From a virus, in the IMG/VR virus record IMGVR_UViG_3300044695_003256, positions 1-39,899 of that record: 39,899 bases of DNA; one strand, given 5' to 3'. The notes below the pieces were generated by a model. It was not told the origin of the DNA, ran no database searches, and worked only from the letters and a program-made list of their open reading frames with translations. Positions 11,918 to 39,021 of the stretch are shown here, piece after piece (positions within the stretch are counted from its first letter, which is position 1; each line of letters opens with the position of its first letter). The position numbers and the translations under genes were made by a program.

Positions 11918-13006
11918 TTGAACAAAGGAACCCTTAAAGGTACCAAATTTGACGGTATTTCAACATCGTCTGAAATAAATTCAGAACCTAATGATATTAA
12001 TGATTTTGATGAAATTAGATATACACTTGAAGGATTTCCAGTTGATAATAGATATAAAACATTAGATGGTATTAATATTGTTAATAGAATTTCTTACTAC
12101 GATGCAGCAATTTGGACAACACAAACCTCAAACTTTGGGGGAAGTGGTGTTTTTTCCGTTGCATATGGAAATAACCTGTGGGTTGCAGGTGGCGGTGGTG
12201 GACAAATAAGAACTTCAACAGATGCAATAACCTGGACAACACAAACCTCAAACTTTGGGACAAGTACTATTAACTCCGTTGCCTATGGAAATGATTTGTG
12301 GGTTGCTGTTGGTAATTCTGGGGCATTAAGAACTTCAACAGATGCCATAACCTGGACAACCCGAACCTCAAACTTTGGGACAACTCAGATTAACTCCGTT
12401 GCCTATGGAAATAACCTATGGGTTGCAGGTGGTGAGAGTTTGCAAATAAGAACTTCAACAGATGCAATAACCTGGACAACACAAACCTCAAACTTTTTGG
12501 GATCAGGTGGCGTTAACTCCGTTGCCTATGGAGATAATTTGTGGGTTGCTGTTGGTGATTCTGGACAATTAAGAACTTCAACAGATGCAATAACCTGGAC
12601 AAGTAGATCTTCAGGTTTTAATTCAGGAAATGTTAATATTTTATCCGTTGCCTATGGAGATAATTTGTGGGTTGCTGTTGGTAATGTTCCGAATTTATCA
12701 ACTTCAACAGATGCAATAACTTGGACAACACAAAGGTCAAACTTTACAACTGATATTAACTCCGTTGCCTATGGAAATAACCTGTGGGTTGCAGGTGCTT
12801 CAAATGGGGGATTAAGAACTTCAACAGATGCAATAACCTGGACAACCCAAACCTCAAACTTTGGGCAAACAAGTATTAACTCCGTTGCCTATGGAAATGA
12901 TTTGTGGGTTGCTGTTGGTAATTTTGGACAATTAAGAACTTCAACCGTTAAAAGAGCGGCACCACCATTTATATTTAATAATATTGTTAGAGGTTTTACA
13001 AAATGA
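11918..13006 (+). CDS. Seven-bladed beta-propeller tail protein, copy 1
   Basis: 362 residues. TTG start at 11918 chosen because its product (MNKGTLKGTKFD) aligns with MNKSNLSGTN and MNNGNFKGTK of the two paralogues, with GGGGGT upstream. After a 60-residue leader come seven repeats of about 40 residues of the form WTTQTSNFG...INSVAYGNNLWVAGG...LRTSTDAIT, then a short tail. Seven repeats suit a seven-bladed propeller, perhaps glycan binding (inference). First of three tandem copies; ATGA overlap with the second. Confidence 0.8.
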   Translation: MNKGTLKGTKFDGISTSSEINSEPNDINDFDEIRYTLEGFPVDNRYKTLDGINIVNRISYYDAAIWTTQTSNFGGSGVFSVAYGNNLWVAGGGGGQIRTSTDAITWTTQTSNFGTSTINSVAYGNDLWVAVGNSGALRTSTDAITWTTRTSNFGTTQINSVAYGNNLWVAGGESLQIRTSTDAITWTTQTSNFLGSGGVNSVAYGDNLWVAVGDSGQLRTSTDAITWTSRSSGFNSGNVNILSVAYGDNLWVAVGNVPNLSTSTDAITWTTQRSNFTTDINSVAYGNNLWVAGASNGGLRTSTDAITWTTQTSNFGQTSINSVAYGNDLWVAVGNFGQLRTSTVKRAAPPFIFNNIVRGFTK

Positions 13007-15106
13007 ATAAAAGTAATTTAAGCGGTACTAATAATAATTTATCAGTGTACAAAACTGGAGAAGTAAGATTTGGATATTTTTCACCAGGTCCTGATTGGGT
13101 TAAAGCAGACGGTTCTTTAATCACAAATAATAGTAAATTATCTAGTTTATTACAACAATATTTTCCTAGTTCTATAACCTGGACAACCCAAACCCCAAAC
13201 TTTGGGACAAGTACTATTAACTCCGTTGCCTATGGAAATAGCCTGTGGGTTGCAGGTGGCAATGGTGGACAAATAAGAACCTCAACAGATGCAATAACCT
13301 GGACAACCCGAACCTCAAACTTTGGGACAAGTACTATTTACTCCGTTGCCTATAAAAATAACCTATGGGTTGCAGGTGGTGTAGGTGGAAGAATAAGAAC
13401 TTCAACAGATGCAATAACCTGGACAACCCGAACCTCAAACTTTGGGTCAAGTACTATTTACTCCGTTGCCTATGGAAATAACCTGTGGGTTGTAGGTGGT
13501 GATGGTGGACAAATAAGAACTTCAACAGATGCAATAACTTGGACAACCCGAACCTCAAACTTTGGGTCAAGTACTATTTACTCCGTTGCCTATGGAAATG
13601 ATTTGTGGGTTGCTGGTGGTTCAACTGGGGAATTAAGAACTTCAACAGATGCAATAACCTGGACAACCCGAACCTCAAACTTTGGGACAACTATTATTGT
13701 CTCCGTTGCCTATGGAAATAGCCTGTGGGTTGCAGGTGGTCGGTCTGGACAAATAAGAACCTCAACAGATGCCACAACCTGGACAACCCAAACCTCAAAC
13801 TTTGGGACAAGTGATATTAACTACGTTGTCTATGAAAATAACCTGTGGGTTGCTGTTGGCGATGTTGGACAAATAAGAACCTCAACAAATACCACAACCT
13901 GGACAACCCAAACCTCAAACTTTGGGGTAGGTAGTATTAACTCCGTTGCCTATGGAAATAACCTGTGGGTTGCAGTTGGTTCAAGTGGGTTATTAAGAAC
14001 TTCTGATTTTACGAAAGTTACTATTCCATTTTTAAAAATAGGACCTATTTTTGGGTGGATTAAAAAATGAACAATGGTAATTTTAAAGGTACTAAAAATA
14101 CAAATAAATACCGTTTTGGTGATGTAATATTTAGATTAACAGAATTAGGATCTCCTGGTCCTGGTTGGATTAGATCAGATATTGTTTATAGTGATACTGA
14201 TCCAAGAATAAAATCTTTTAAAAATTATAAAGATTTTGAATCACTACATATTTGGACAACCCGAGACTCAGGATTTCTATCAAATGGTATTATTTACTCC
14301 GTTGCCTATGGAAATAACCTGTGGGTTGCAGTTGGTTCAAGTGGGGCATTAAGAACTTCAACAGATGCAATAACTTGGACAACCCGAACCTCAAACTTTG
14401 GGACAAGTAATATTTTCTCCGTTGCCTATGGAAATAGCCTGTGGGTTGCAGGTAGCAATGGTGGACAAATAAGAACCTCAACAGATGCCATAACCTGGAC
14501 AACACAAACCTCAAACTTTGGGACAACTCAGATTAACTCCGTTGCCTATGGAAATAACCTGTGGGTTGCAGGTGGCAATGGTGGACAAATAAGAACCTCA
14601 ACAGATGCCACAACCTGGACAACCCGAACCTCAAACTTTGGGACAAGTGATATTAACTACGTTGCCTATGGAGATAATTTGTGGGTTGCTGTTGGTACTG
14701 CGGCATTAAGAACTTCAACAGATGGAACAACCTGGACAACCCGAACCTCAAACTTTTCAGGATCAATTTACTCCGTTGCCTATGGAAATAACCTGTGGGT
14801 TGCAGGTGGTTCAAATGGGTCATTAAGAACTTCAACAGATGCAATAACCTGGACAACCCGAACCTCAAACTTTGGGACAACTGATCTTTATTCCGTTGCC
14901 TATGGAAATAACATGTGGGTTGTGGGTGGTGCTGGTGTTGGACAATTAAGAACTTCAACAGATGGAACAACCTGGACAACTCAAACCTCAAATTTTTTTC
15001 AAAGTAATTTAAACCCTGGTTTAGCGTATATTAACTCCGTTGCCTATGGAGATAATTTGTGGGTTGCTGCTGGTAATGTTGGACAATTAAGAACATCAAC
15101 ATTAAC
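12113..15106 (+). repeat. Array of 21 propeller-blade repeats in three genes
   Basis: About 120-nt units, seven in each of three adjacent genes (roughly 12113-12950, 13181-14010, 14250-15106). Units keep the words ACCTGGACAAC, TCCGTTGCCTATGGA and AGAACTTCAACAGATGC almost unchanged, while the bases between (blade loops) vary. The unit-to-unit identity is high enough to support recombination within and between the genes. Confidence 0.9.
13003..14070 (+). CDS. Seven-bladed beta-propeller tail protein, copy 2
   Basis: 355 residues. The leader contains a 'FGYFSPGPDWVKADGSLI' segment, resembling a phage tail-collar motif (GWLxxDG), then seven WTT(Q/R)TSNFG blades and a C-terminal tail (PFLKIGPIFGWIKK). 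ATGA overlaps with the copies on both sides, so the three are co-translated. Blade loops differ from copy 1, while core strands are nearly identical. Confidence 0.8.
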   Translation: MNKSNLSGTNNNLSVYKTGEVRFGYFSPGPDWVKADGSLITNNSKLSSLLQQYFPSSITWTTQTPNFGTSTINSVAYGNSLWVAGGNGGQIRTSTDAITWTTRTSNFGTSTIYSVAYKNNLWVAGGVGGRIRTSTDAITWTTRTSNFGSSTIYSVAYGNNLWVVGGDGGQIRTSTDAITWTTRTSNFGSSTIYSVAYGNDLWVAGGSTGELRTSTDAITWTTRTSNFGTTIIVSVAYGNSLWVAGGRSGQIRTSTDATTWTTQTSNFGTSDINYVVYENNLWVAVGDVGQIRTSTNTTTWTTQTSNFGVGSINSVAYGNNLWVAVGSSGLLRTSDFTKVTIPFLKIGPIFGWIKK

Positions 15107-15164
15107 TAGACAATCTCCAGTAATTCCAGCATTTAATAAATATACTCCTTGGATTAAAACTTAA
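14067..15164 (+). CDS. Seven-bladed beta-propeller tail protein, copy 3
   Basis: 365 residues. The leader has 'RFGDVIFRLTELGSPGPGWI' with a P-G-W-I-R-S-D collar-like motif as in copy 2. Seven blades follow, the last with an insertion (FFQSNLNPGLAYINSVAYG). Ends PAFNKYTPWIKT, like the C-termini of copies 1 and 2 (...GFTK, ...GWIKK). Followed by a strong promoter. Confidence 0.8.
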   Translation: MNNGNFKGTKNTNKYRFGDVIFRLTELGSPGPGWIRSDIVYSDTDPRIKSFKNYKDFESLHIWTTRDSGFLSNGIIYSVAYGNNLWVAVGSSGALRTSTDAITWTTRTSNFGTSNIFSVAYGNSLWVAGSNGGQIRTSTDAITWTTQTSNFGTTQINSVAYGNNLWVAGGNGGQIRTSTDATTWTTRTSNFGTSDINYVAYGDNLWVAVGTAALRTSTDGTTWTTRTSNFSGSIYSVAYGNNLWVAGGSNGSLRTSTDAITWTTRTSNFGTTDLYSVAYGNNMWVVGGAGVGQLRTSTDGTTWTTQTSNFFQSNLNPGLAYINSVAYGDNLWVAAGNVGQLRTSTLTRQSPVIPAFNKYTPWIKT

Positions 15165-15166
15165 TA

Positions 15167-15195
15167 TTGACAATATAACAGCATAATGATATAAT
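15167..15195 (+). promoter_or_regulatory. Perfect-consensus promoter before the glycosyltransferases
   Basis: TTGACA, 17-nt spacer ending TGA, TATAAT: both boxes perfect, plus extended -10. Followed by AGAAAGG and the ATG at 15215. Confidence 0.85.
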
Positions 15196-15214: not shown

Positions 15215-15913
15215 ATGAAACCACATTTTAATGTTGTTTTTGCTACCCCTGGAAAAGGGATGCTGCCAGGTTATGTTAGAAGTTTACTTAAAACTGTAAA
15301 AATATTAGAAAATGAAAACTTGTCGTGGAATTATATGACTGAATACTCTTCTTTAGTTTCTCACGCTAGAGAAAAAACAATTGGTGGCACTGGATCTCAA
15401 GATCCATCCAATACCCATCCTGGTCATGGAGAATTTACATATGACAAAATTATGTGGATTGACTCAGACATATCTTGGGAACCAATAGATTTTTTCAGAC
15501 TTTATAATTCAGATAAACAAATAATTTCTGGGTGTTATCAAATAGAAGATAATACAGCAACAGTTTATATGGAACCGCTTGGTCCAGCAATGCCAGCAAA
15601 AGAATTAATTAAATTAGACAAACCTTTTAAAACATTTGGGGTTGGGTTTGGATTTTTATGTGTAAAATCTGGTGTGTTTGAAAACATGAAAAGACCCTGG
15701 TTTTCTCAAGAAGAAATAGAAGTTAAAAATAAAGATACTGGTGAAATTGAATATAAGTTTCCATTAATGGGTGAAGATCTATCATGGTGTAATAAGGTAC
15801 AAAAAATGGGTATGGATATATGGGTAGACCCCTTAGTGAGGGTACATCATCATAAACAAATTATTCTTGACTGGACAAATGTAGATGTTGATTGGTCTAA
15901 TAAGTTAGGGTAA
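15215..15913 (+). CDS. GT-A type glycosyltransferase-like protein
   Basis: 232 residues. IMWIDSDISWEP (about 79-90) carries a DxD-type motif (D83, D85) for metal-nucleotide-sugar binding; GEDLSWCNKVQKMG (186-199) fits the acidic/acceptor region, and HHHK at 211 the late His. The fold class is that of glycosyltransferase family 2-like proteins, common in phages. Substrate unknown. It may sugar-modify virion proteins or host surface. Start has AGAAAGG at 8 nt; 1-base gap to the next gene. Confidence 0.75.
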   Translation: MKPHFNVVFATPGKGMLPGYVRSLLKTVKILENENLSWNYMTEYSSLVSHAREKTIGGTGSQDPSNTHPGHGEFTYDKIMWIDSDISWEPIDFFRLYNSDKQIISGCYQIEDNTATVYMEPLGPAMPAKELIKLDKPFKTFGVGFGFLCVKSGVFENMKRPWFSQEEIEVKNKDTGEIEYKFPLMGEDLSWCNKVQKMGMDIWVDPLVRVHHHKQIILDWTNVDVDWSNKLG

Positions 15914-16642: not shown

Positions 16643-17605
16643 ATGTCTGAATTTTTACAAAAACCAGTTAAAAACATAAAGAAAGATAGTTATATGCCAG
16701 CAATGGGCGGTAGTGAAATACTTAGACAAGGACTATATAAACATACAAACATATCTAAACATAAAGATATAAATATTATACTTTCTACCCCTTCTTATGA
16801 AAATGTTAAATTTACTAAAAAAAATATATTGTGGCAACATTTAAGTTATAGTGATTCATCATTAGGTCTATTAAAAGATCCAGGGTTTTTAAAATCTATT
16901 GATTCTTGGGTGTATGTTTCAAATTGGCAAATAGAAAAGTTTAGATATATTTATCAAATACCTGTTCATAATGCGTACGTTATTAAAAATGCTATTGAGC
17001 CTATTGAATTTATTAGTAAGCCTAAAGGGGATAAGTTAAAACTTATTTATACCTCTACCCCATTTAGAGGACTGGGTATTTTATTAGACGTTATGAGTTT
17101 ATTAGATAGAGACGATATAGAACTAGACGTTTATTCATCAAATGATATTTACGGATCTGACTATGCGGATCATACAGGAAATGTATATGATGAAATATTT
17201 AAAAAAGCAAAGAATACTAAGAATGTTAATTACAAAGGATATGCTAGTAATGAATATGTTAAAAAGGCTTTACAAGAATCACATATTTTTGCATACCCAA
17301 GTATTTTTGAAGAAACCTGTTGCCTAGCAATGATTGAGGCTGGTGCTGCTGGCTGTGATATGGTAACCACAAATATTGGTGCACTATACGAAACTGGCTC
17401 AGAGTATGCCAAATTAGTCCCAATACAGGCTACTGAGCAGGATATAGTGGCATCTTATGCAGAGGCATTGAATGAAACTATAGATAATTATTGGGGTATA
17501 AAAAATCAAGAAAAACTAAAAGAACAATCTGACTTTTACAACAAATACTATAATTGGGAAGATAAAGCAAAGGAATGGAATAGGCTTTTCGACAAAATGT
17601 CATAG
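16643..17605 (+). CDS. GT-B (family 4-like) glycosyltransferase
   Basis: 320 residues. The frame opens at 16610, but the ATG at 16643 has AAGGA 6 nt upstream and sits 8 nt after the preceding stop, so it is preferred. GT4-like features: YTSTPFRGLGILLDV (start of the C-terminal Rossmann half), then SHIFAYPSIFEETCCLAMIE, the E-x7-E nucleotide-sugar motif, and GAAGCDMVTT. N-terminal half binds the acceptor in this family. Substrate unknown. Confidence 0.8.
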   Translation: MSEFLQKPVKNIKKDSYMPAMGGSEILRQGLYKHTNISKHKDINIILSTPSYENVKFTKKNILWQHLSYSDSSLGLLKDPGFLKSIDSWVYVSNWQIEKFRYIYQIPVHNAYVIKNAIEPIEFISKPKGDKLKLIYTSTPFRGLGILLDVMSLLDRDDIELDVYSSNDIYGSDYADHTGNVYDEIFKKAKNTKNVNYKGYASNEYVKKALQESHIFAYPSIFEETCCLAMIEAGAAGCDMVTTNIGALYETGSEYAKLVPIQATEQDIVASYAEALNETIDNYWGIKNQEKLKEQSDFYNKYYNWEDKAKEWNRLFDKMS

Positions 17606-28810: not shown

Positions 28811-29899
28811 ATGAGTAGACCTACTATTGGATTTTTAACCTATGATTGGGCTTTTGGATTAAAGCCTATTCAACCAAATGGATGTGCTTGGTATAGATGT
28901 TATTTACCACTTCAAGAATTAAAAAAAGATAAATATGAATCTGGTATGGGTATGCCAGGGTATAACGATGAACATGGGTTTGGTATATTAATTCCTGACA
29001 AACAAGCAATACATGGTTGGGATATTGTTGTTCTTAAATTAATTATGTTAGAAAAAGTTGCAGAGCAAGTAGATAAAGCAATTGCAATGGGACAAAAAAT
29101 AGTTGTTGATTTAGATGATCATATGGAAGGTTTGGCTAAAACTAATCTTGCTTATACTATGACAGATCCTCAAAAGAATCCAAATAATAATAGAGAGCAT
29201 TATTTTAAAATTATAGAAAAGGCTACTGCTTTAATTACGTCAACACCTTTCTTAAAAGAATTTTATGAAAAGAAGCACCCAGATAAACCAATATTTTTAG
29301 TAAGGAATGGAATTGATTTAGATAGATGGACACCAAGAAACGATCATTCTGGACATTTGCCAACATATGGTTGGGTTGGTGCTACTCCTTGGCGTAGTGG
29401 TGATTTAGAAAATCTTAGTCCATATTTTGGAAAATTTATAGAAAAACAACATTGTAAGTTTCATCATGCTGGTAGTATTATTAATGCTCCAGAGGTAAAT
29501 AAACAAATAGGATTAGATAAAAAATACTTTACTCATGAACCTATGAAACCAATATTAACTTATCCTGAATTATTTAGAAAAATTGATGTTGGTATAGTTC
29601 CTTTAACTAATATAGAATTTAATGATGCTAAGTCTTTTATTAAGGGTCTTGAATATACCGCAGCAGGTATTCCTTTCATTGCTAGCCCAAGTCCTGAGTA
29701 TGTTTATCTAGCAGAGCAAGGTGTTGGTAGGATAGCAAAGGATGAAAATGAATGGCTACAGCATGCAGAAGAACTACTAAACCCAAAAACAAGAAAAGAA
29801 GAAAGAGAAAGAAATAGACAGATAGTAGCCGAAAAGTTTAGTATGAAATCAAGGGCTGCTGACTGGGAAGAAGTATTTGACAAGATTCTTGCGTTATAA
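28811..29899 (+). CDS. GT-B (family 4-like) glycosyltransferase
   Basis: 362 residues. 'NGCAWYRCYLPLQELKK' and 'WDIVVLKLIMLEKVAEQVDK' fit the acceptor-side Rossmann; 'KIVVDLDDHMEGL', 'VRNGIDLDRWTP', 'YGWVGATPWRSGDLENL', and 'SFIKGLEYTAAGIPFIASPS' are the classical GT4 signatures, with the nucleotide-sugar site in the last. Third glycosyltransferase of the window, 11 kb from the others. Substrate unknown. Confidence 0.85.
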   Translation: MSRPTIGFLTYDWAFGLKPIQPNGCAWYRCYLPLQELKKDKYESGMGMPGYNDEHGFGILIPDKQAIHGWDIVVLKLIMLEKVAEQVDKAIAMGQKIVVDLDDHMEGLAKTNLAYTMTDPQKNPNNNREHYFKIIEKATALITSTPFLKEFYEKKHPDKPIFLVRNGIDLDRWTPRNDHSGHLPTYGWVGATPWRSGDLENLSPYFGKFIEKQHCKFHHAGSIINAPEVNKQIGLDKKYFTHEPMKPILTYPELFRKIDVGIVPLTNIEFNDAKSFIKGLEYTAAGIPFIASPSPEYVYLAEQGVGRIAKDENEWLQHAEELLNPKTRKEERERNRQIVAEKFSMKSRAADWEEVFDKILAL

Positions 29900-29900
29900 T
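29895..29900 (+). promoter_or_regulatory. TATAAT box 6 nt from the ATG at 29907
   Basis: TATAAT then TAATAC then ATG, the same leaderless spacing as 6602-6817; no ribosome site is visible. TTGACA occurs at 29877, but the spacer would be only 12 nt. Confidence 0.5.
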
Positions 29901-29906
29901 TAATAC

Positions 29907-30425
29907 ATGGCAAAAATCTTTATATCTGCTTTAGAAGAATTAAACCCTTTAGCAATATCTATAGAAGACTTCTTAAAGAGGCATAGCGGGCACAGGAAGG
30001 CTCTTTTTCAGCCCCAGGCTGATCTTACCCTAGAGTTGGGTAAAGAAAGGCAATTAGGTAGTAAAGATCCAGTTGTATATATTTATGATGATAGTGAATT
30101 TGTATCTAATATAGGTAAGTCTATTACTGAAAATTTTAGAAATAATTTGATTAATAGTTCATACCCTCAAAATAATGGGAGTAGTAAAGAGTATCTAACT
30201 TTAACTATAAATGTATGTAGACAAAATGATTCTATTGATCAGGATAAATATGGAAAAATTATAGGGGAAGCAATAGTTAAATTTTTTAATCCTGAGTATG
30301 AAGAAATATTAAAACATCAAGCAGAGCCTACTAATAAAGCAAGTAAAGATAAAACATACTATGATAGAGCCTTTAATCAAGGGTCTACTAGTAATGCTTC
30401 TTTAATATTTAAAAAGAAGTCTTAG
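29907..30425 (+). CDS. Hypothetical protein
   Basis: 172 residues. N-terminal 'LKRHSGHRKALFQPQADLTL', a middle beta part ('DPVVYIYDDSEFVSNIGKSI') and a Lys-rich end. No family recognised. Its TAG overlaps the stop of the convergent lysis gene (30422-30425) with no terminator between. Probably leaderless. Role unknown. Confidence 0.6.
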   Translation: MAKIFISALEELNPLAISIEDFLKRHSGHRKALFQPQADLTLELGKERQLGSKDPVVYIYDDSEFVSNIGKSITENFRNNLINSSYPQNNGSSKEYLTLTINVCRQNDSIDQDKYGKIIGEAIVKFFNPEYEEILKHQAEPTNKASKDKTYYDRAFNQGSTSNASLIFKKKS

Positions 30426-30931
30426 TACCAGCCTTTATATAATCTAAAATCTAAGGCTTTACATCCATCACCATAAATCAAATTAACGTATTTAATCATT
30501 GCATCAATTTGAGCATATGGGTCAGAAGTCTTTTTAGAGTCAACAAGAGCCCAAGTACTATTAAGAAACTGCCCTATACCAAAAGCAGTAGACTTTGGGT
30601 TTTGAGCAACTGGATTCCAACGACTTTCTCTATCTACTAATTTAAAGTAGCACTTTAATTCTTTTGCTGGAATATTTTCTTTTAAATAGTGTTGATAGGC
30701 TTTAACTGCTAACTCAGATTTAGGATCATTAAATTGTGCCCTAGAACGACTAGCAACAACTGAGTTAGATTCTCTTGCAGTAATTACCCCCTCTAAAGGA
30801 CTATAGGTGGCTTGTCCTTTTGAGACAGCCACCAAAGGTTCGGCGGTATACAAGGGAGTCTGTCTATCTACATAATTAATATAAGTACCAATAAAAATAA
30901 AAGCCAATAATGCTGAATATGCTTTCTTCAT
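30422..30931 (-). CDS. Lytic transglycosylase (SLT-type endolysin)
   Basis: 169 residues. A hydrophobic N-terminal segment (about 5-20) could act as signal or anchor. 'VDRESRWNPVAQ' holds the likely catalytic Glu (E102), followed by 'STAFGIGQFLNSTWALV', the SLT motif, and a C-terminal GWY, typical of actinobacterial and actinophage transglycosylases. Cleaves peptidoglycan glycan strands in this family. Perfect Shine-Dalgarno (AAGGAGGT). Opposite strand to the holin. Confidence 0.85.
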   Translation of the reverse strand: MKKAYSALLAFIFIGTYINYVDRQTPLYTAEPLVAVSKGQATYSPLEGVITARESNSVVASRSRAQFNDPKSELAVKAYQHYLKENIPAKELKCYFKLVDRESRWNPVAQNPKSTAFGIGQFLNSTWALVDSKKTSDPYAQIDAMIKYVNLIYGDGCKALDFRLYKGWY

Positions 30932-30968
30932 AAGTTACCTCCTTGAAGAAGTTTTTTTCGACTATTCT

Positions 30969-30997
30969 AGTATAACCTATGAATTTAAATAAATCAA
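30969..30997 (-). promoter_or_regulatory. Promoter for the lytic transglycosylase
   Basis: Minus strand TTGATT, 17-nt spacer, TATACT. Separates lysin expression from the rightward late operon. Confidence 0.65.
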
Positions 30998-31019
30998 GCA
31001 TTTATTAAATATGATATAA

Positions 31020-31140
31020 ACAAGGGTTTTACATATGTACATATATACATATACAGATAGTATTTAATATATTATTATATTAATTATTTTATATATTATA
31101 TATTTAATCTATTCCCACCCTATCCACCCATCTAGTTTAT
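31020..31140. other. AT-rich gene-free stretch
   Basis: Very AT-rich, with a TATGTACATA palindrome and alternating TATATA runs followed by long A/T blocks and a C-rich end (CCCACCCTATCCACCC). No open frame or clear promoter. Could be an origin, a duplex-unwinding element or a spacer; not decidable from sequence. Confidence 0.45.
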
Positions 31141-31142
31141 AC

Positions 31143-31361
31143 TTAATTTTTATATTTGTCAATAGTTTCTTTGATAATATTTATTACCTTGATTCCAGGG
31201 TGAAACGTTGAGTTGCAAGTGATACACTCAAAGTAAACCTGATCCTCAGAGTTAACTCTAGTAACAACAATATCATCATTACCGAATGGACAGTTAATTT
31301 TACCAGCAAGTTGACGATTTGCCAAACTGTTGTAAAAGTTAACCTCTTGTATTGATAGCAT
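31143..31361 (-). CDS. Small hypothetical protein with Cys motif
   Basis: 72 residues: 'MLSIQEVNFYNSLANRQLAG', 'KINCPFGNDDIVVTRVNSED', 'QVYFECITCNSTFHPGIKVI'. CITC plus an upstream CPFG may form a zinc-ribbon with an atypical first knuckle. AAGGAAGGT before the ATG. Divergent from the ribonucleotide reductase. Role unknown. Confidence 0.6.
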   Translation of the reverse strand: MLSIQEVNFYNSLANRQLAGKINCPFGNDDIVVTRVNSEDQVYFECITCNSTFHPGIKVINIIKETIDKYKN

Positions 31362-31364
31362 AAT

Positions 31365-31402
31365 TTGACCTTCCTTAAAAACTCTAGTACAATGATATCA
31401 TT
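31365..31402 (+). promoter_or_regulatory. Ribonucleotide reductase promoter with overlapping palindrome
   Basis: TTGACC, 17-nt spacer, TACAAT (31388-31393). The perfect 12-bp palindrome AATGATATCATT (31391-31402) overlaps the -10 and start site, an operator position. Does not look like an NrdR box. Confidence 0.6.
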
Positions 31403-31433
31403 ACTCTAAAAAAATCAAAGGAAGTGCTTTATT

Positions 31434-33374
31434 TTGTCATTTATTAACGAAAAAGGATCAATCTCAGATCCGTACAAAAACTTTATCCACATCTCAAGGT
31501 ATGCAAGATGGATTGAAGATAAGAATCGCAGAGAGACCTGGACCGAAACGGTTGAAAGATATATAAATTTTATGAAAGACCATTTAATTTTAAATTATGG
31601 ATATAGTCCAAACGCTAAAATTTTTGATGAAGTTAAAGACTCTATTTTAAACCATAGAATCATGCCATCAATGAGAGCCTTAATGACTGCTGGACCAGCA
31701 CTAGAACGTGATCACATTGCAGCATACAACTGCTCATTTATCGCTGTAGATAGTCTTCGTGCATTTGATGAAGCGATGTATGTTTTGATGAACGGAACAG
31801 GCGTAGGATTTTCAGTAGAGTCAAAGTATCTTGAAGAACTTCCAGTAATTGCAGAATCATTTAATCAAACAGGAACAACTATTGTTGTAGAAGATTCTAA
31901 ACTTGGTTGGGCAAAAGCACTTAAAGAATTAATTGCGTTATTGTCACAAGGACAAATTCCACAATGGGATATGTCTAAGGTTCGTCCATCAGGTGCTAGA
32001 CTAAAAACTTTTGGTGGTCGTGCTTCTGGACCTGGACCACTTGGTGCATTGTTTACATTTACAGTAGATACATTTAAGAACGCAGCAGGACGTAGATTAA
32101 AACCAATTGAGGCACATGACTTAATGTGTAAAGTTGGAGAAGTAGTTGTAGTTGGAGGAGTTCGCCGTTCTGCTCTAATTTCACTTTCAAATCTTGATGA
32201 CTTTGAAATGGCTAAGGCTAAAAGTGGTTCTTGGTGGGAAACTCAACCACAAAGATCATTAGCAAATAACTCTGCTGTCTATAATGCAAAACCAAACACA
32301 GCACAATTTTTACGCGAATGGAGAAATCTTTACGAATCAAAATCTGGTGAAAGAGGAATTTATAATATTGATTCAGTTCGTAAGCATGTTGAGTCATTTG
32401 GTAGAAGAGATTCATCTTTAGTTTCTGGAACAAACCCATGTGGTGAAATTATTCTTCGTTCAAATGAATTTTGCAATTTAACTGAAGTAGTTATTTCAGC
32501 AGAAGATACAAGAGAAGAGTTAATGGAAAAAATAAGACTTGCTACAATACTTGGAACATGGCAATCTACATTGACTAATTTTAAATATATTAGAAAAGTA
32601 TGGAAAGATAATTGTGAAGAAGAAAGACTGCTTGGAGTTTCTCTAACAGGAATTTATGGAAATAAAATTACTTCAACTGCAGGAAAAGCATTAGAGCAGT
32701 TATTGACTGACTTAAGATTAGAATCAGTAAAGGTTAATGATGTAGAAGCAAAAAAACTTAACATTAACCCATCTGTATCTATTACTTGCGTTAAGCCTTC
32801 TGGCACTGTAAGTCAATTGGTCGGGGTGTCTAGTGGTATTCATCCATGGTATTCAGAGTACTACGTAAGAAGTGTTCGTGGATCTAACAATGATCCATTG
32901 ACTCAATTTTTAAAAGATTCAGGAATTCCAAACGAACCAGATGTAATGAAACCTGATGAAACAACAGTATTTTATTTTCCTCAAAAGGCTCCAAAGAATG
33001 CAACAGTAACAAAAGATTTAACAGCCGTAGATCATCTAGAGATGTGGAAGATTTATAGAACTTATTGGACAGAACATAACCCTAGCGTTACTATTAATGT
33101 TCACGAAGATGAATGGCTAAGAGTAGGTGCATGGGTTTTTGATAACTTTGATTCAATTGGTGGTGTATCTTTCTTACCAGCGAGTGAACATACTTATAAG
33201 CAAGCCCCATATCAAGAAATTTCTAAAGATGAGTATGAAGAATGGGTAAAAAAATCTCCTTCAAATATTCAATGGGATATGCTGTCTTTATATGAAAAAG
33301 AAGATGGAACCACTGGAACACAAGAACTTTCATGTGTTGCAGGGGAATGCGAAATAGTTGACATTACAAAGTAG
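31434..33374 (+). CDS. nrdJ: Class II (adenosylcobalamin-dependent) ribonucleotide reductase
   Basis: 646 residues, TTG start with AAAGGAAG about 11 nt upstream; no ATG near. Reduces ribonucleotides to deoxyribonucleotides using a B12 radical. 'TNPCGEI' carries the radical Cys336 and Glu338. Cys100 (AYNCSF) and Cys347 form the redox pair, and Cys634/Cys639 (CVAGEC) the C-terminal relay, with spacings matching the Lactobacillus monomeric enzyme (408/419, 731/736). Also 'KPSGTVSQLVGVSSGIHP'. Shorter than the usual ~740 residues. Needs host or environmental B12. Confidence 0.95.
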   Translation: MSFINEKGSISDPYKNFIHISRYARWIEDKNRRETWTETVERYINFMKDHLILNYGYSPNAKIFDEVKDSILNHRIMPSMRALMTAGPALERDHIAAYNCSFIAVDSLRAFDEAMYVLMNGTGVGFSVESKYLEELPVIAESFNQTGTTIVVEDSKLGWAKALKELIALLSQGQIPQWDMSKVRPSGARLKTFGGRASGPGPLGALFTFTVDTFKNAAGRRLKPIEAHDLMCKVGEVVVVGGVRRSALISLSNLDDFEMAKAKSGSWWETQPQRSLANNSAVYNAKPNTAQFLREWRNLYESKSGERGIYNIDSVRKHVESFGRRDSSLVSGTNPCGEIILRSNEFCNLTEVVISAEDTREELMEKIRLATILGTWQSTLTNFKYIRKVWKDNCEEERLLGVSLTGIYGNKITSTAGKALEQLLTDLRLESVKVNDVEAKKLNINPSVSITCVKPSGTVSQLVGVSSGIHPWYSEYYVRSVRGSNNDPLTQFLKDSGIPNEPDVMKPDETTVFYFPQKAPKNATVTKDLTAVDHLEMWKIYRTYWTEHNPSVTINVHEDEWLRVGAWVFDNFDSIGGVSFLPASEHTYKQAPYQEISKDEYEEWVKKSPSNIQWDMLSLYEKEDGTTGTQELSCVAGECEIVDITK

Positions 33375-33403
33375 CAACATGATAAAATAGACTAGAGGTA
33401 TCT

Positions 33404-36400
33404 ATGTCTGAATCCATTGCAAATCTTTATGCTGCTAGGATCTTTGCTGAGCATCCATTAGCATTTTGGTCACTGGATGATGAAGTTTCTTTCTTATCTA
33501 AACTAAGTGTATCTGAAAAAGATCTTTCAAATTGGTCTTTATACAATATGCAAGAGTCACTATCTTCCTCTCCTGCTTTTGGAGCACCAGTTACTGGAAA
33601 TCCATCTGTGTTGGTAACAAACGTTTCAGCATCTTCCTTTCTTTCTGCTTCGGCAATTGCTTCACCTATAAATACAATAAATAACCTTGATCCAGACAAA
33701 AAAACAATATCGATAAACTTATTTACATATGACTTTAAAGGTTTTGTTTTAAGTTATGACATAGGGTTTAAATATAACAATACCCTTTACTATAAAACTA
33801 TAAGTAGTCCAGAAAACCAAGAATGGGTAAAAGTTAGCCATACAATAGATGTGCCAAGTGGCAATATTGACCTATATCCATTTTTTAGAATTAATTACAT
33901 AAACTCAGGAGTCAACTCTGGAAACGATTACGATGTTGCAATTAGTGGACTTTCAGTTGGTCAATGGTCTGAAATTTTTCATTATAAGTCTACTGGTGAA
34001 AATCCAACAACTATTCAAGACGCAGAATTATTAAGTATTGTTTCGGCATCAAACTATACCTCTTTATCATCATCAGCAATAACAGTAATTCCAGCAGATT
34101 CATATGGCATAGCAAACTCTAATGCTGGATATTATTTAGTTGAAAACAATAGAATGCTTGCAACTAGTTTAGACTTCCCAATAACATTTGGATCAAACAA
34201 CATAACAAGTTTAACTTACCCAATATTTAGTAGCATACCATCTTTAGTTTTTGAAGGACAGGGGTTTTTAAACAAGTATGGACAATATAGATCTTTAACA
34301 GCAGAGTTTTGGTTAAGGGCTTATAGCAACGCAAAGATACCAGTAAAAATATTTGGACCACTAACTTCTGGTGACGGTATATATATAGAAAATGATTTTA
34401 TAATTATAAAAATAGGTTTAAATAAAAAGTCATACTTTATAGGTAAATGGTACAGACCTATGCTTATTGATTTTATATATGAAATAACAAGTGCTTCTTT
34501 ATTAATAAATGGTGACTTGGTTATACAAATGCCGATAGATCAAGACCAATTAACTTTTCCAGAAATAACAAAAGACTATCTTGGATTTTTTGCTGATGAA
34601 GAAGTTAGCACAATAGAAGTTGATGCATTTGCAATTTATCCATACGTTGTTCCAGAACAAGTAGCAAAAAGAAGATTTATTTACGCTCAAGGTGTTGAAG
34701 CGGCAAATAACATTACAACAAACTTTAATGGAGATTCTTTTCAATTAGATTTTCCATACGCTAACTATACATCAACATTAAACTATCCAGACATGAATGA
34801 TTGGAACTCTGGATTTTTTAATAATTTAAAAAGTACCTCTAAGTACTTATCATTTCCAGACTATGAATTGCCACAGATTATATTTGGAGCATCTGGAAGT
34901 GGTGCCTTTACTGGGGTAGATGAAAGACAATTTTTAAACGATAACTATGCTATTCAAGATTCAGACTATCCATTTATAAAACTTAGACCAAACTCAAACT
35001 ATAACAATATAAACTCAAGTATATACTTTTCAAATTTAAATATTTTAAACAGTCCATTGAGAAGTATTTTTGGTGTATTTGAAGCACCAACATCTTTATC
35101 AGCAAGTGCACAAACATTGATGACACTTACAAACAGTTTTAATAACGATACTTTTACAGTAACAGTAAGTAGTTCTGGTTTGCAATATTTATTTAACTCA
35201 GTACCACTTGGTAGTGCTTTAGCAATATCCGCATCATCTACTTTTATTGCTGGTTTTGATCTTAATCAAATTACTTTACAAAACTCAGACATCTTGCAAA
35301 ACTTTTTTTCAAATCCACAAAATATATCTCTTAGACTAGGGGGTACTCAAAACTCTGTCTATAGTGGAAAGATACATAGAATAACATTCAATAATGCTAT
35401 GCATACTCAAAAAGATTTGTCTGACTATATAAGTGCTAACGGAATATTTAACCAGACTATCGATACATACTATCTAAAGTATTATATTGGAAACTATACT
35501 TACTACCCACAGATTCTATCTGAAAGCGTTGTTTTAGACATAGGTGCTTCGGGATATTGGGAAGATTCAATCCCTCTGTCATATTTTGGAAGGTATGTAG
35601 AAGATAGAAATAAAAACTCATATTATGACTTAGACATGATTCAATTTAATATAGAAATACCATCCTCTCCAATATTAAAAAAAGAACAATACTTTGTTGA
35701 CGGAGGATCATCAAGATCTTCTAATTTTAAATTTTGGTTTGACGATGGTTTATCTACCAGAGATGAAGAAGACGTAACTCTTGAGTTTGATGGTGGTAGC
35801 CCATCTTTATCTCCTGATGAATTAACTGACGATCAACTAGATGCAGCCTTCAAAGATTACTCAAAAGATAATTACTTTATAAAATCCTACATTACTCTTC
35901 AAAACTATCAAGATGCTGGAACAATCCCATATTCACAATATGTTAATACACAAAGAATTAATGGAGATAGGGTTCTTGATTTTGATTCGTCAAATATTCA
36001 AGATTTTAATAATACAAAGTACGAGGTATCAGATAGAACAGTTATATTCCCTCCAAAAGAATTAGTTGATTTTAATGACTACTATGTAACTGTTCATATA
36101 GAACTTTCAACAAATGGAATTATAAACAATCCAATACAGATTAAAAAAATGTCCTTGGCTTCTTTGGCATATGACGAATCAGCGTTCTACTCAATTAGCA
36201 GTCCAGATGGATACAAACTATACCCATTTAGTAGATATAACAAATTTTATGTATATAAAAATAAAAATCCTTTTACTGTATACAAAGACTCAACCTCTTA
36301 TATGCATACAACTGCAGACTCTGGTATAAGCGTTCTACCTTACGAGTCATCTGCAACACGCGGAATAACTATACCAATTAATCAACAACAGGCTAGTTCT

Positions 36401-37033
36401 TATACTTTGGGCGGGGTACAGTTATGGGCATTCTATAACAAAGATAGTTTAATAAATTCAATAGAACACATTGGACAAATAAAAACTAAATACAGAACTT
36501 ATGATTTATACCTTAATCCAGAATCAAATAAAACAAGAGCAAAGATGACAATAGTAGATCAAAATGGACTTGATCCTTCAGAAGATTTAATATTTTATCA
36601 AAATGGAAGAATAGTAGATAGTATATATATCTCACCACTTTCTTGGAATTTTATCTTAATAGTGTTTGACCAAGGAGAAGAACTAAACAACTATGTTGGT
36701 CAGTTTGAACTTTATCAGGGGTTAATGATTAACAATATAGCCTTTTACAGAAAGTCCAATGAGGTACTTGGAAGAGAATTTATATTTAACGATTGGGTAG
36801 ACTTAACAACAGAAACAACCTGGCAAACCTGGTTTGATGCAGAAAACTGGTCTGCTATAGAAGGGGCGGTAGAAGAAATAAGGGTAAATGTAGATGGAAA
36901 AAGTATATATGATTCTACTTTTGGAGTTTCTAATGTAGTTTTGAACGATGATTCAATATTAAATGTAAGTTCAGATAAAGTAGTAATAATTACTGGTACT
37001 GTTTGGAAAGAGTATAGCCAAATACCAGTATAA
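33404..37033 (+). CDS. Very large tail protein (LamG-like)
   Basis: 1209 residues. Starts 'NLYAARIFAEHPLAFWSLDD', a pattern of actinophage minor tail proteins with a LamG/concanavalin-like fold. A second such part near 295-430 ('LTAEFWLRAYSNAKIPVKIF', 'YLGFFADEEVSTIEVDAFAI'). The rest is beta-rich with no further motif. AGAGGT upstream of the ATG. Probably a tail tip or fibre component beside the head genes. Confidence 0.65.
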   Translation: MSESIANLYAARIFAEHPLAFWSLDDEVSFLSKLSVSEKDLSNWSLYNMQESLSSSPAFGAPVTGNPSVLVTNVSASSFLSASAIASPINTINNLDPDKKTISINLFTYDFKGFVLSYDIGFKYNNTLYYKTISSPENQEWVKVSHTIDVPSGNIDLYPFFRINYINSGVNSGNDYDVAISGLSVGQWSEIFHYKSTGENPTTIQDAELLSIVSASNYTSLSSSAITVIPADSYGIANSNAGYYLVENNRMLATSLDFPITFGSNNITSLTYPIFSSIPSLVFEGQGFLNKYGQYRSLTAEFWLRAYSNAKIPVKIFGPLTSGDGIYIENDFIIIKIGLNKKSYFIGKWYRPMLIDFIYEITSASLLINGDLVIQMPIDQDQLTFPEITKDYLGFFADEEVSTIEVDAFAIYPYVVPEQVAKRRFIYAQGVEAANNITTNFNGDSFQLDFPYANYTSTLNYPDMNDWNSGFFNNLKSTSKYLSFPDYELPQIIFGASGSGAFTGVDERQFLNDNYAIQDSDYPFIKLRPNSNYNNINSSIYFSNLNILNSPLRSIFGVFEAPTSLSASAQTLMTLTNSFNNDTFTVTVSSSGLQYLFNSVPLGSALAISASSTFIAGFDLNQITLQNSDILQNFFSNPQNISLRLGGTQNSVYSGKIHRITFNNAMHTQKDLSDYISANGIFNQTIDTYYLKYYIGNYTYYPQILSESVVLDIGASGYWEDSIPLSYFGRYVEDRNKNSYYDLDMIQFNIEIPSSPILKKEQYFVDGGSSRSSNFKFWFDDGLSTRDEEDVTLEFDGGSPSLSPDELTDDQLDAAFKDYSKDNYFIKSYITLQNYQDAGTIPYSQYVNTQRINGDRVLDFDSSNIQDFNNTKYEVSDRTVIFPPKELVDFNDYYVTVHIELSTNGIINNPIQIKKMSLASLAYDESAFYSISSPDGYKLYPFSRYNKFYVYKNKNPFTVYKDSTSYMHTTADSGISVLPYESSATRGITIPINQQQASSYTLGGVQLWAFYNKDSLINSIEHIGQIKTKYRTYDLYLNPESNKTRAKMTIVDQNGLDPSEDLIFYQNGRIVDSIYISPLSWNFILIVFDQGEELNNYVGQFELYQGLMINNIAFYRKSNEVLGREFIFNDWVDLTTETTWQTWFDAENWSAIEGAVEEIRVNVDGKSIYDSTFGVSNVVLNDDSILNVSSDKVVIITGTVWKEYSQIPV

Positions 37034-37051
37034 TATGATACAATATGGTAT

Positions 37052-37417
37052 ATGAATTCAAACAATATTGATAAAAACGGTAAATCAAAGTTAAAAGTAC
37101 TCAATAAACAACAAAGGTATGGCTTATATGTGTGGCAAATGGATCATAATGGAAAGGCTTTTGGAGACAAGGGTGGCAACGTTATGAATATTCCAGGTAA
37201 TCAATATGATTTAGATAAGATGAGCAAGGTAGCACAAGCCGCTAGATATTATAATGCTCCAGCAGGAAAGGTAATTTTTATGCCAGGAGTGAGAAGAGTT
37301 TCTGAAATGGAATACTCTGAACAACTTGGAAGAATGAAAGAAGGATATATTGCCAGCGAAACCGACATTGGTGCCTGGATGGATGCAGCAAAGGGGATAA
37401 AGACAAATGGAGAATGA
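37052..37417 (+). CDS. Conserved small phage protein upstream of portal
   Basis: 121 residues. 'LYVWQMDHNGKAFGDKGGNV', 'MNIPGNQYDLDKMSKVAQAA', 'GKVIFMPGVRRVSEMEYSEQ'. I recall 'LYVWxMPDG...D..GN.MNIPS..GD..KM..L..AA..YG' proteins adjacent to portals in actinophages and others. Function unknown. No ribosome site: a TGATACAAT box ends 7 nt before the ATG, again leaderless. Overlaps the portal gene by 11 bp. Confidence 0.65.
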   Translation: MNSNNIDKNGKSKLKVLNKQQRYGLYVWQMDHNGKAFGDKGGNVMNIPGNQYDLDKMSKVAQAARYYNAPAGKVIFMPGVRRVSEMEYSEQLGRMKEGYIASETDIGAWMDAAKGIKTNGE

Positions 37418-38966
37418 AGAATTAGAATCTATTGCAAGAATAGATAATTTAGATAGAATGGAAAGACCAGAAAAAAGCGATGACTTTATGGTCGATGCAG
37501 AGTTAGCAAAAACATATACAGGACTAGATTCAAACTTTAAACGTAGAGCAACTAGATCAATAAGTAAAGCATTCACTGGTCAAGAAAATACAGGATCAAA
37601 ACAATTATTTCAAGAACAAGATATAGTTACAGCATACGGTCTTTATGACGTAGTTGTTCCACCATATAACTTAGATGAACTAGCATTCTTTTACGAAAAT
37701 TCATTTGCTAACCACGCTGCTATTAATGCCAAAGTTGCAAATACTGTTGGACTAGGATATTCATTTGTAAACACAGACTCTACTTTAGCAAGACTAGAAG
37801 ATGCCGAATCAGATGAACAATTAATTAGGGCACAAAGAAAAATTCAAAGACTCAAGTCTCAAATGACTGAATGGCTAGAAGAACTTAATGACGAAGATAC
37901 CTTTAGTCATATATTAGAAAAAGTATACGTAGACGCTGAATCAACAGGTAATGGATATATAGAAATTGGAAGAAAAGTAAATGGAGAAATTGGATATGTT
38001 GGTCATATCCCATCAACCACAGTGCGTGTAAGAAGATTAAGAGATGGCTACATCCAGATAGTAAATCAAAGAGTAGTTTATTTTAGAAACTTTCAAGGTA
38101 AAGAATCAAACCCAGTAACTAACGATCCTAGACCAAACGAATTAATTCACATCAAAAAATACTCACCAAAAACTTCTTACTACGGAGTTCCAGACACAGT
38201 AGCCTCATCTGTTGCTATGGTTGGAGATAATTTAGCGGGTAGATATAACATTGACTACTTTGAAAACAAAGCAGTGCCAAGATATATAGTTACTCTAAAA
38301 GGAGCAAAACTATCATCTGATGCAGAAGATAAGTTATTTAGATTCTTGCAATCAGGACTTCGTGGTCAAAACCACAGAACCTTATACATACCACTTCCAG
38401 GAGACTCTACAGACAATAAAGTAGACTTTAAAATGGAACCTATTGAAAATGGCATACAAGAAGGATCATTTGAAAAATACCGTAAATCAAATCGTGACGA
38501 TATTTTGATGGCTCATCAAGTACCATTCTCTAAAGTAGGAGGAGGGGCTGGAGTTTCAATAGCCTCAGCAATATCTTCTGATAGGACCTTTAAAGAGCAG
38601 GTTGCAAGACCAGCACAAAGAAACTTAGAAAAGGTTATAAATAAAATTGTAAAAGAAAAGACCGATATGGTTGCTTTTAAACTTAACGAACTAACCCTGA
38701 CTGATGAAACCACTCAAAGTCAGATTGATGAACGATACCTAAGAATGCAGGTAGTTGTTCCAAATGAGGTTCGTGAAAGACTTGGATACCCATCAAGAAT
38801 GGGTGGACAAGACCCTATTGTCTTAGGTGCTCAACAAAGAGCAGAGATTACATCTCAATCTAATGGCAATAGAATGAGGGATCAACAGAGAACTGATAAC
38901 AATAGCGATTCTCCTTCAACCACTACAGGACGAGGTCCTGGTGGCGAGGGTAGAACGGTAGAATAA
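37407..38966 (+). CDS. Portal protein
   Basis: 519 residues. The dodecameric head-vertex channel for DNA. 'NELIHIKKYSPKTSYYGVPD' followed by 'NIDYFENKAVPRYIVTLKGA' is the portal-family signature, with 'KVGGGAGVSIASAISSDRTF' and a disordered C-terminus (SPSTTTGRGPGGEGRTVE). Next gene is the prohead protease, the usual order. Start ATG lies inside the preceding gene, with GAAG upstream. Confidence 0.9.
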   Translation: MENEELESIARIDNLDRMERPEKSDDFMVDAELAKTYTGLDSNFKRRATRSISKAFTGQENTGSKQLFQEQDIVTAYGLYDVVVPPYNLDELAFFYENSFANHAAINAKVANTVGLGYSFVNTDSTLARLEDAESDEQLIRAQRKIQRLKSQMTEWLEELNDEDTFSHILEKVYVDAESTGNGYIEIGRKVNGEIGYVGHIPSTTVRVRRLRDGYIQIVNQRVVYFRNFQGKESNPVTNDPRPNELIHIKKYSPKTSYYGVPDTVASSVAMVGDNLAGRYNIDYFENKAVPRYIVTLKGAKLSSDAEDKLFRFLQSGLRGQNHRTLYIPLPGDSTDNKVDFKMEPIENGIQEGSFEKYRKSNRDDILMAHQVPFSKVGGGAGVSIASAISSDRTFKEQVARPAQRNLEKVINKIVKEKTDMVAFKLNELTLTDETTQSQIDERYLRMQVVVPNEVRERLGYPSRMGGQDPIVLGAQQRAEITSQSNGNRMRDQQRTDNNSDSPSTTTGRGPGGEGRTVE

Positions 38967-39021
38967 TAAATAGTTATAAGTTTTAAAAATCTCTTATAAA
39001 CACTTATATAATGGAAGTAGT

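Follow-up and report, generated by a model that had tools for sequence, protein, structure and literature searches.

A class II ribonucleotide reductase gene and its neighbourhood in freshwater phages related to Stanwilliamsviridae

Introduction

Why would a phage keep its gene for a B12-dependent ribonucleotide reductase (RNR) between lysis genes and head genes? The question is raised by a 39,899-base virus record from IMG/VR, the whole of which was analysed and is referred to here as the window. According to the initial annotation, such a reductase usually sits with replication genes, and the one in the window stands out in several ways: it lies among late genes, has a promoter and a palindromic operator of its own, and encodes an enzyme about 100 residues shorter than the classical monomer. 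We therefore asked which of these properties are peculiar to this virus and which belong to its lineage. The features under discussion are listed in Table 1.

Table 1 Features around the RNR gene (positions are those of the window)
Feature	Position	Strand	Basis or conservation
SLT transglycosylase-like protein (lysis or entry)	30422..30931	-	Pfam, PHROG
Divergent 72-aa three-cysteine zinc-ribbon-like protein	31143..31361	-	ORF, alignment, model
-35 hexamer TTGACC of the RNR promoter	31365..31370	+	TTGNNN at this spacing in 77/78 upstream regions
-10 hexamer TACAAT of the RNR promoter	31388..31393	+	TA[CG]AAT at 17-nt spacing in 77/78 upstream regions
Perfect 12-bp palindrome AATGATATCATT overlapping the RNR -10	31391..31402		exact in 10/78 upstream regions
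Proposed -10 TATCAT (TG one base before) of the zinc-ribbon gene, inside the palindrome	31392..31397	-	inferred from a sequence match only
Shine-Dalgarno-like AAAGGAAG of RNR	31417..31424	+	read directly
Monomeric class II ribonucleotide reductase (NrdJ/RTPR type), 646 aa, TTG start	31434..33374	+	ORF, profiles, model
1209-aa protein	33404..37033	+	29 nt downstream of the RNR stop codon; transcription unit probably shared
121-aa conserved protein (PHROG 9394)	37052..37417	+	PHROG
Portal protein (PF04860)	37407..38966	+	Pfam, PHROG

Results

The identification of the gene as a class II RNR with a TTG start was confirmed. In the profile search, PHROG 367 (ribonucleotide reductase) matched the protein over nearly its full length (E 1e-185), and the Pfam models for the RNR barrel, the alpha region and the class II insertion domain all scored above their cut-offs. 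Considering that TIGR02505 (RTPR equivalog) reached 315.1 bits, below its curated cut-off of 340.05, we do not claim the narrow NCBI equivalog label; the broader PHROG 367 fits. A missed cut-off of this kind may be expected for a divergent phage clade. The start codons of 78 close relatives were ATG (65), TTG (8) and GTG (1), and for the other four the alignment starts two codons into the gene.

An AlphaFold2 model built with 81 aligned homologues had a mean pLDDT of 90.0 and a pTM of 0.91. The RTPR of Lactobacillus leichmannii (1l1l) was both the best solved match in the sequence search and the top Foldseek match to the model (E 4e-43), and VIA-align superimposed the two over 603 residues (Z 39.7, rmsd 2.6), with about 28% identity over the structural alignment. 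Other structures gave lower Z values, namely 35.5 for a class Id chain (362 residues only) and 31.6 for dimeric class II, with other class I chains also below 1l1l. The catalytic cysteine pattern of 1l1l is retained as well: C100, C336, C347, C634 and C639, together with N334 and E338, are invariant in the alignment of 81 homologues and in seven diverse phage RNRs. We take C336, within NPCxE, to be the catalytic thiyl cysteine and C100/C347 to be the active-site pair, following RTPR biochemistry. The pair C634 and C639 is the C-terminal one for re-reduction. A literal motif search recovered all four cysteine motifs in 77 of 78 close relatives, one relative being without one motif as written. 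The claim that all catalytic cysteines are kept therefore holds for the relatives too. Taken together, alignments and model support a class II enzyme of the monomer type with the RTPR fold and an intact catalytic set. Such an enzyme would take adenosylcobalamin from the host cell and reduce ribonucleoside triphosphates for phage DNA synthesis.

Other phages carry enzymes of the same type. The class II RNR of mycobacteriophages (Trixie, L5 type) has the cysteines conserved but measures 676 aa and shares 29% identity with that of the window, and the monomeric class II NrdJm of Thermus phage P23-45 (661 aa, 34% identity) likewise has all catalytic cysteines. A Thermus virus enzyme has been shown to be B12-dependent, monomeric and allosterically regulated (PMC6459318). 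The RNR annotation of Roseobacter phage CRP-118 (OR420741.1, L095:5977-8050) consists of two parts separated by about 400 nt, perhaps owing to an intervening element or a frameshift.

The protein has 646 residues, 93 fewer than the L. leichmannii chain (739), in line with the shortening noted initially. Offsets in the local alignment to 1l1l place the absent residues at the N-terminus (~12), at query positions 46-117 (27), at 140-178 (35) and around 418-426 (24). However, proteins of the clade normally have this length, with 645-649 aa in each of the 78 close relatives measured, and a short insertion beside the specificity site is common to Stanwilliamsviridae-type phages, PaMx25-type phages, many other phages and Patescibacteria genome sequences. 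We therefore regard the enzyme not as truncated but as a member of a short-insertion clade.

The place of the gene, between a minus-strand SLT transglycosylase-like gene and the portal gene, proved to be shared. A relative of the RNR was present in 1191 of 50,697 phage records. In the freshwater group, the conserved order of genes is the zinc-ribbon gene (minus strand), RNR, a protein of ~1200 aa, a 121-aa protein and the portal. Neighbours were compared in freshwater IMG/VR loci, namely the best 80 among 361 relatives. Homologues of the 1209-aa protein and of the portal turned up in 79 loci each and one of the small minus-strand gene in 75, some contigs being short and not all reaching the neighbours. 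The nearest cultured relatives are Streptomyces phages of Stanwilliamsviridae. Their RNRs have 647-648 aa, those of EGole and MeganTheeKilla being 59-62% identical to the enzyme of the window, and occupy the same place, between glycosyltransferase/transglycosylase and endolysin/portal genes. Specifically, RNR follows a glycosyltransferase gene near a transglycosylase/hydrolase or endolysin gene in EGole, MeganTheeKilla, BillNye and Braelyn; beyond RNR, the stretches of the former two continue to portal, protease and capsid genes, and those of the latter two end earlier. In detail, the cultured phages differ from the window in that the glycosyltransferase gene separates the minus-strand block from RNR, an endolysin gene stands after RNR, and RNR and the zinc-ribbon gene do not form a directly divergent pair. 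The minus-strand block of BillNye nevertheless holds a homologue of this small gene, as in the window (hhalign probability 98.6).

A phylogeny of the reductase had been recommended as a check. In a tree of 85 RNRs, whose deep part is unsure owing to two very long branches elsewhere, the window sequence and its relatives formed one clade (support 100) that grouped with EGole and MeganTheeKilla (99). Judged by this clade and by gene order, the window phage is related to Stanwilliamsviridae.

DNA polymerase A and ThyX were each found in none of the 10 longer relative contigs, which may be fragments. The DnaB helicase was therefore taken as the replication landmark, and in 8 of the 10 contigs it lies 28.5-32.1 kb downstream of RNR. 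In contrast, RNR is accompanied by ThyX, DNA polymerase and primase genes in Trixie and adjoins the DNA polymerase gene in P23-45. That RNR usually keeps company with replication genes is thus a fair rule, but one from which this lineage as a whole departs, and the distance from replication genes would be an ancestral trait of the lineage. Because cultured Streptomyces phages and freshwater loci have the same arrangement, placement between lysis and head genes is real but constitutes a family trait and not an anomaly. Titles and opening lines of abstracts in the literature yielded no paper on RNR placement or promoters in this lineage.

Two further observations deserve mention. Relative to window positions 30300-38970, L071 and L060 are mostly 89-95% identical in DNA over the flanks (SLT gene, portal) and only about 58-82% over the middle 6 kb (zinc-ribbon gene, RNR, 1209-aa gene); this mosaic suggests an exchange of the 6-kb RNR block. 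An RNR of the same clade also occurs in a record of a Streptomyces genome (L212:2094-9397), where it is surrounded by genes for DNA polymerase A and for RecA-like and WhiB-like proteins, in what looks like a prophage or phage-derived element.

Upstream of RNR lies a sigma-70-type promoter, TTGACC-17-TACAAT, at 31365-31393. A scan of the region returned 21 promoter-like sites versus 17.5 in shuffled sequences; a match to the consensus alone therefore means little, and it is conservation that counts. In 78 upstream regions (the window included; L011 excluded for too little upstream sequence), TTGNNN-17-TA[CG]AAT was present in fixed register in 77, 33 of which have TTGCTT, a weak -35. When 4 of 6 matches were demanded in the -35, a site was called in 55 of the 78, and 11 of these 55 were off-register. 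The sole exception, L079, has a 214-aa endonuclease-like ORF (L079:125-769; PHROG endonuclease, E 1e-19) inserted between a promoter-like copy and RNR, which is unique among the 78 regions. No promoter-like plus-strand site was called upstream of RNR in EGole and MeganTheeKilla, and the promoter is therefore traceable in the freshwater clade only. In EGole, a terminator-like hairpin separates the glycosyltransferase gene from RNR, and the single such hairpin called in MeganTheeKilla lies further upstream. Elsewhere in the window, a perfect consensus promoter, TTGACA-17-TATAAT, stands at 15167-15195 before a gene at 15215; positions 11918-15164 encode three adjacent paralogous proteins with many near-identical ~35-residue repeats (TSNFGTS..SVAYGNNLWVAGG), perhaps receptor-binding or tail proteins.

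In 78 of 79 sequences, 22-36 nt separate the RNR stop from the next long ORF (29 nt in the window), and no plus-strand terminator was called within 29800-34000. We therefore prefer to view the promoter as opening a unit that comprises RNR and structural genes. Judging by this spacing, it probably serves the whole RNR-capsid transcription unit: transcription would start just before RNR and run on into the structural genes, so that RNR would be the first gene of a rightward capsid unit with no private operator. Of the promoter proposed at the outset, its existence and conservation have thus been borne out, but not its being private to RNR. In RNA-seq data described for a Rhodococcus phage, RNR goes with the middle genes, among other genes of DNA synthesis and replication (PMC10986025); that timing does not tell when RNR is expressed in the window phage.

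The 72-aa protein encoded opposite to RNR has three invariant cysteines in its alignment, and its model indicates a confident small fold (pLDDT 91.0). Its zinc-ribbon look raised the possibility of a miniature NrdR; NrdR was not among the families listed for it, which are mostly weak Pfam and profile matches. In Pfam, the CHC2/DnaG zinc ribbon was matched by 27 of 41 members of the family (best E 1.5e-5), again mostly weakly, and Elf1 by 4, the match of the window's own protein to Elf1 being below the cut-off. Comparison with solved structures gave nothing clear (best profile E 0.38, Foldseek E 0.53, VIA Z 3.1).

Discussion

The results above leave the palindrome at the -10 to be explained. 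That it is perfect over its 12 bp and overlaps the -10 was confirmed, but an operator, at which a repressor would tune RNR apart from the late genes, appears distinctly unlikely. The palindrome does touch a strong promoter, and an 18-mer around it, present in 11 IMG/VR stretches, is always located ahead of RNR or, in contigs that stop there, next to the zinc-ribbon gene. Yet conservation among relatives, proposed as a check, mostly failed: 68 of the 78 upstream regions are without the palindrome and still have the promoter, one of the 10 that carry it (L002) comes from the same virus as the window or from a nearly identical virus, one region beyond these 10 (L030) is short of a single end base, and two other promoter types are without it. 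Perfect palindromes of at least 12 bp also occur in the window at chance frequency (15 versus 15.0 on average in simulations). With up to 2 mismatches allowed, the 18-mer did not recur elsewhere in the loci examined; being confined to the RNR upstream site, it is therefore a clade-specific promoter sequence and gives no sign of a regulon. With an NrdR-box consensus and up to 3 mismatches, the one match in the window is at 16819 and none is near RNR, and no Rfam family, cobalamin riboswitch included, reached its gathering score anywhere in the window. A plainer, suggestive reading is that the palindrome arises from two overlapping -10 elements, the plus-strand TACAAT of RNR and, for the zinc-ribbon gene, a minus-strand extended -10 (TG-n-TATCAT), with both promoters competing for RNA polymerase. 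We consider this possible, if short of probable. The starts of the two genes are only 72 nt apart, the -35 of RNR shares 2 bases with the Shine-Dalgarno of the small gene, and a minus-strand -10 with 5 of 6 matches lies 20-45 nt before the small gene's ATG in all 42 distinct inter-gene regions, compared with a mean of 12.9 and a maximum of 22 such regions in shuffles (n=500). TG stands at the extended position in all three promoter types, with differing letters in the hexamer (TATCAT, GATAAT, TAAAAT). However, the 42 regions are related and hence no independent tests, so that the count is suggestive only; the inter-gene sequence is AT-rich, and the offset of the minus-strand -10 differs among the three promoter types. 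It is a much more speculative and rather improbable idea that the 72-nt space, with two mutually exclusive promoters and the zinc-ribbon protein binding there, forms a compact switch that times RNR and, via read-through, the capsid genes; in such a switch, the symmetric -10 of this clade would make for balance.

Two other alternatives concern the gene itself. A recent insertion (moron) into the late region, bringing its own promoter, might be thought of since conservation of RNR far exceeds that of its neighbours, with 94-95% versus 38-42% for the next protein at several loci. We find this hardly credible, as it is largely refuted by the same place of RNR in Streptomyces phages of two subfamilies and in freshwater loci; moreover, an enzyme that diverges more slowly than a tail-type protein is ordinary. 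Likewise unlikely, if less strikingly so, is that the shorter insertion reflects a loss of normal substrate-specificity regulation. The region had been singled out initially as the place to look for the shortening, and ~35 residues of the dimer-mimicking insertion beside the specificity site are indeed missing relative to 1l1l; its Pfam model (PF21995) is covered only at positions 38-97 of 107. The GVG and DS motifs are 28 residues apart in 66 of the 83 RNRs measurable among 87 sequences (a few odd values among them being unverified), versus 53-56 in Thermus, Mycobacterium and Lentibacter phage enzymes, and the insertion of the P23-45 enzyme is ~28 residues longer than that of the window. On the other hand, the second half of the insertion still passes the Pfam cut-off (27.6 bits versus 27), roughly two thirds of the size difference falls outside the insertion, and the short form is not specific to this phage: its fixation over a large clade, with Patescibacteria genome sequences among the members, speaks for a design that works. 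Given the shorter insertion relative to both 1l1l and the Thermus enzyme, allosteric behaviour is not simply transferable to the short form.

Thus, the gene is real, intact, well placed and of a known kind, and the operator is not supported. Very probably, the locus holds an ordinary phage monomeric class II RNR that has a fixed place in a large freshwater group related to Stanwilliamsviridae and heads the capsid unit.

WhiB, described as a marker of actinobacteriophages (PMC6802176, PMC10202952), was found in 4 of 10 longer relatives. Together with the kinship to Streptomyces phages, this suggests an actinobacterial host. The proposed tie of phage DNA synthesis to host B12 supply would follow from the enzyme class, and host cobalamin dependence would hold for all class II phage RNRs. 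Genomes of acI bacteria are described as being without cobalamin synthesis but with a putative importer (PMC5301498); if acI bacteria were the hosts, B12 would need to be imported.

For the family, a false anomaly is removed: the place of RNR in this lineage is at the head of the structural unit, and a small enzyme is what the clade normally has. What emerges is one testable regulatory detail, the putative overlapping divergent promoters kept across many freshwater phages, and the enzyme adds to the picture of cobalamin-dependent freshwater actinobacteriophages.
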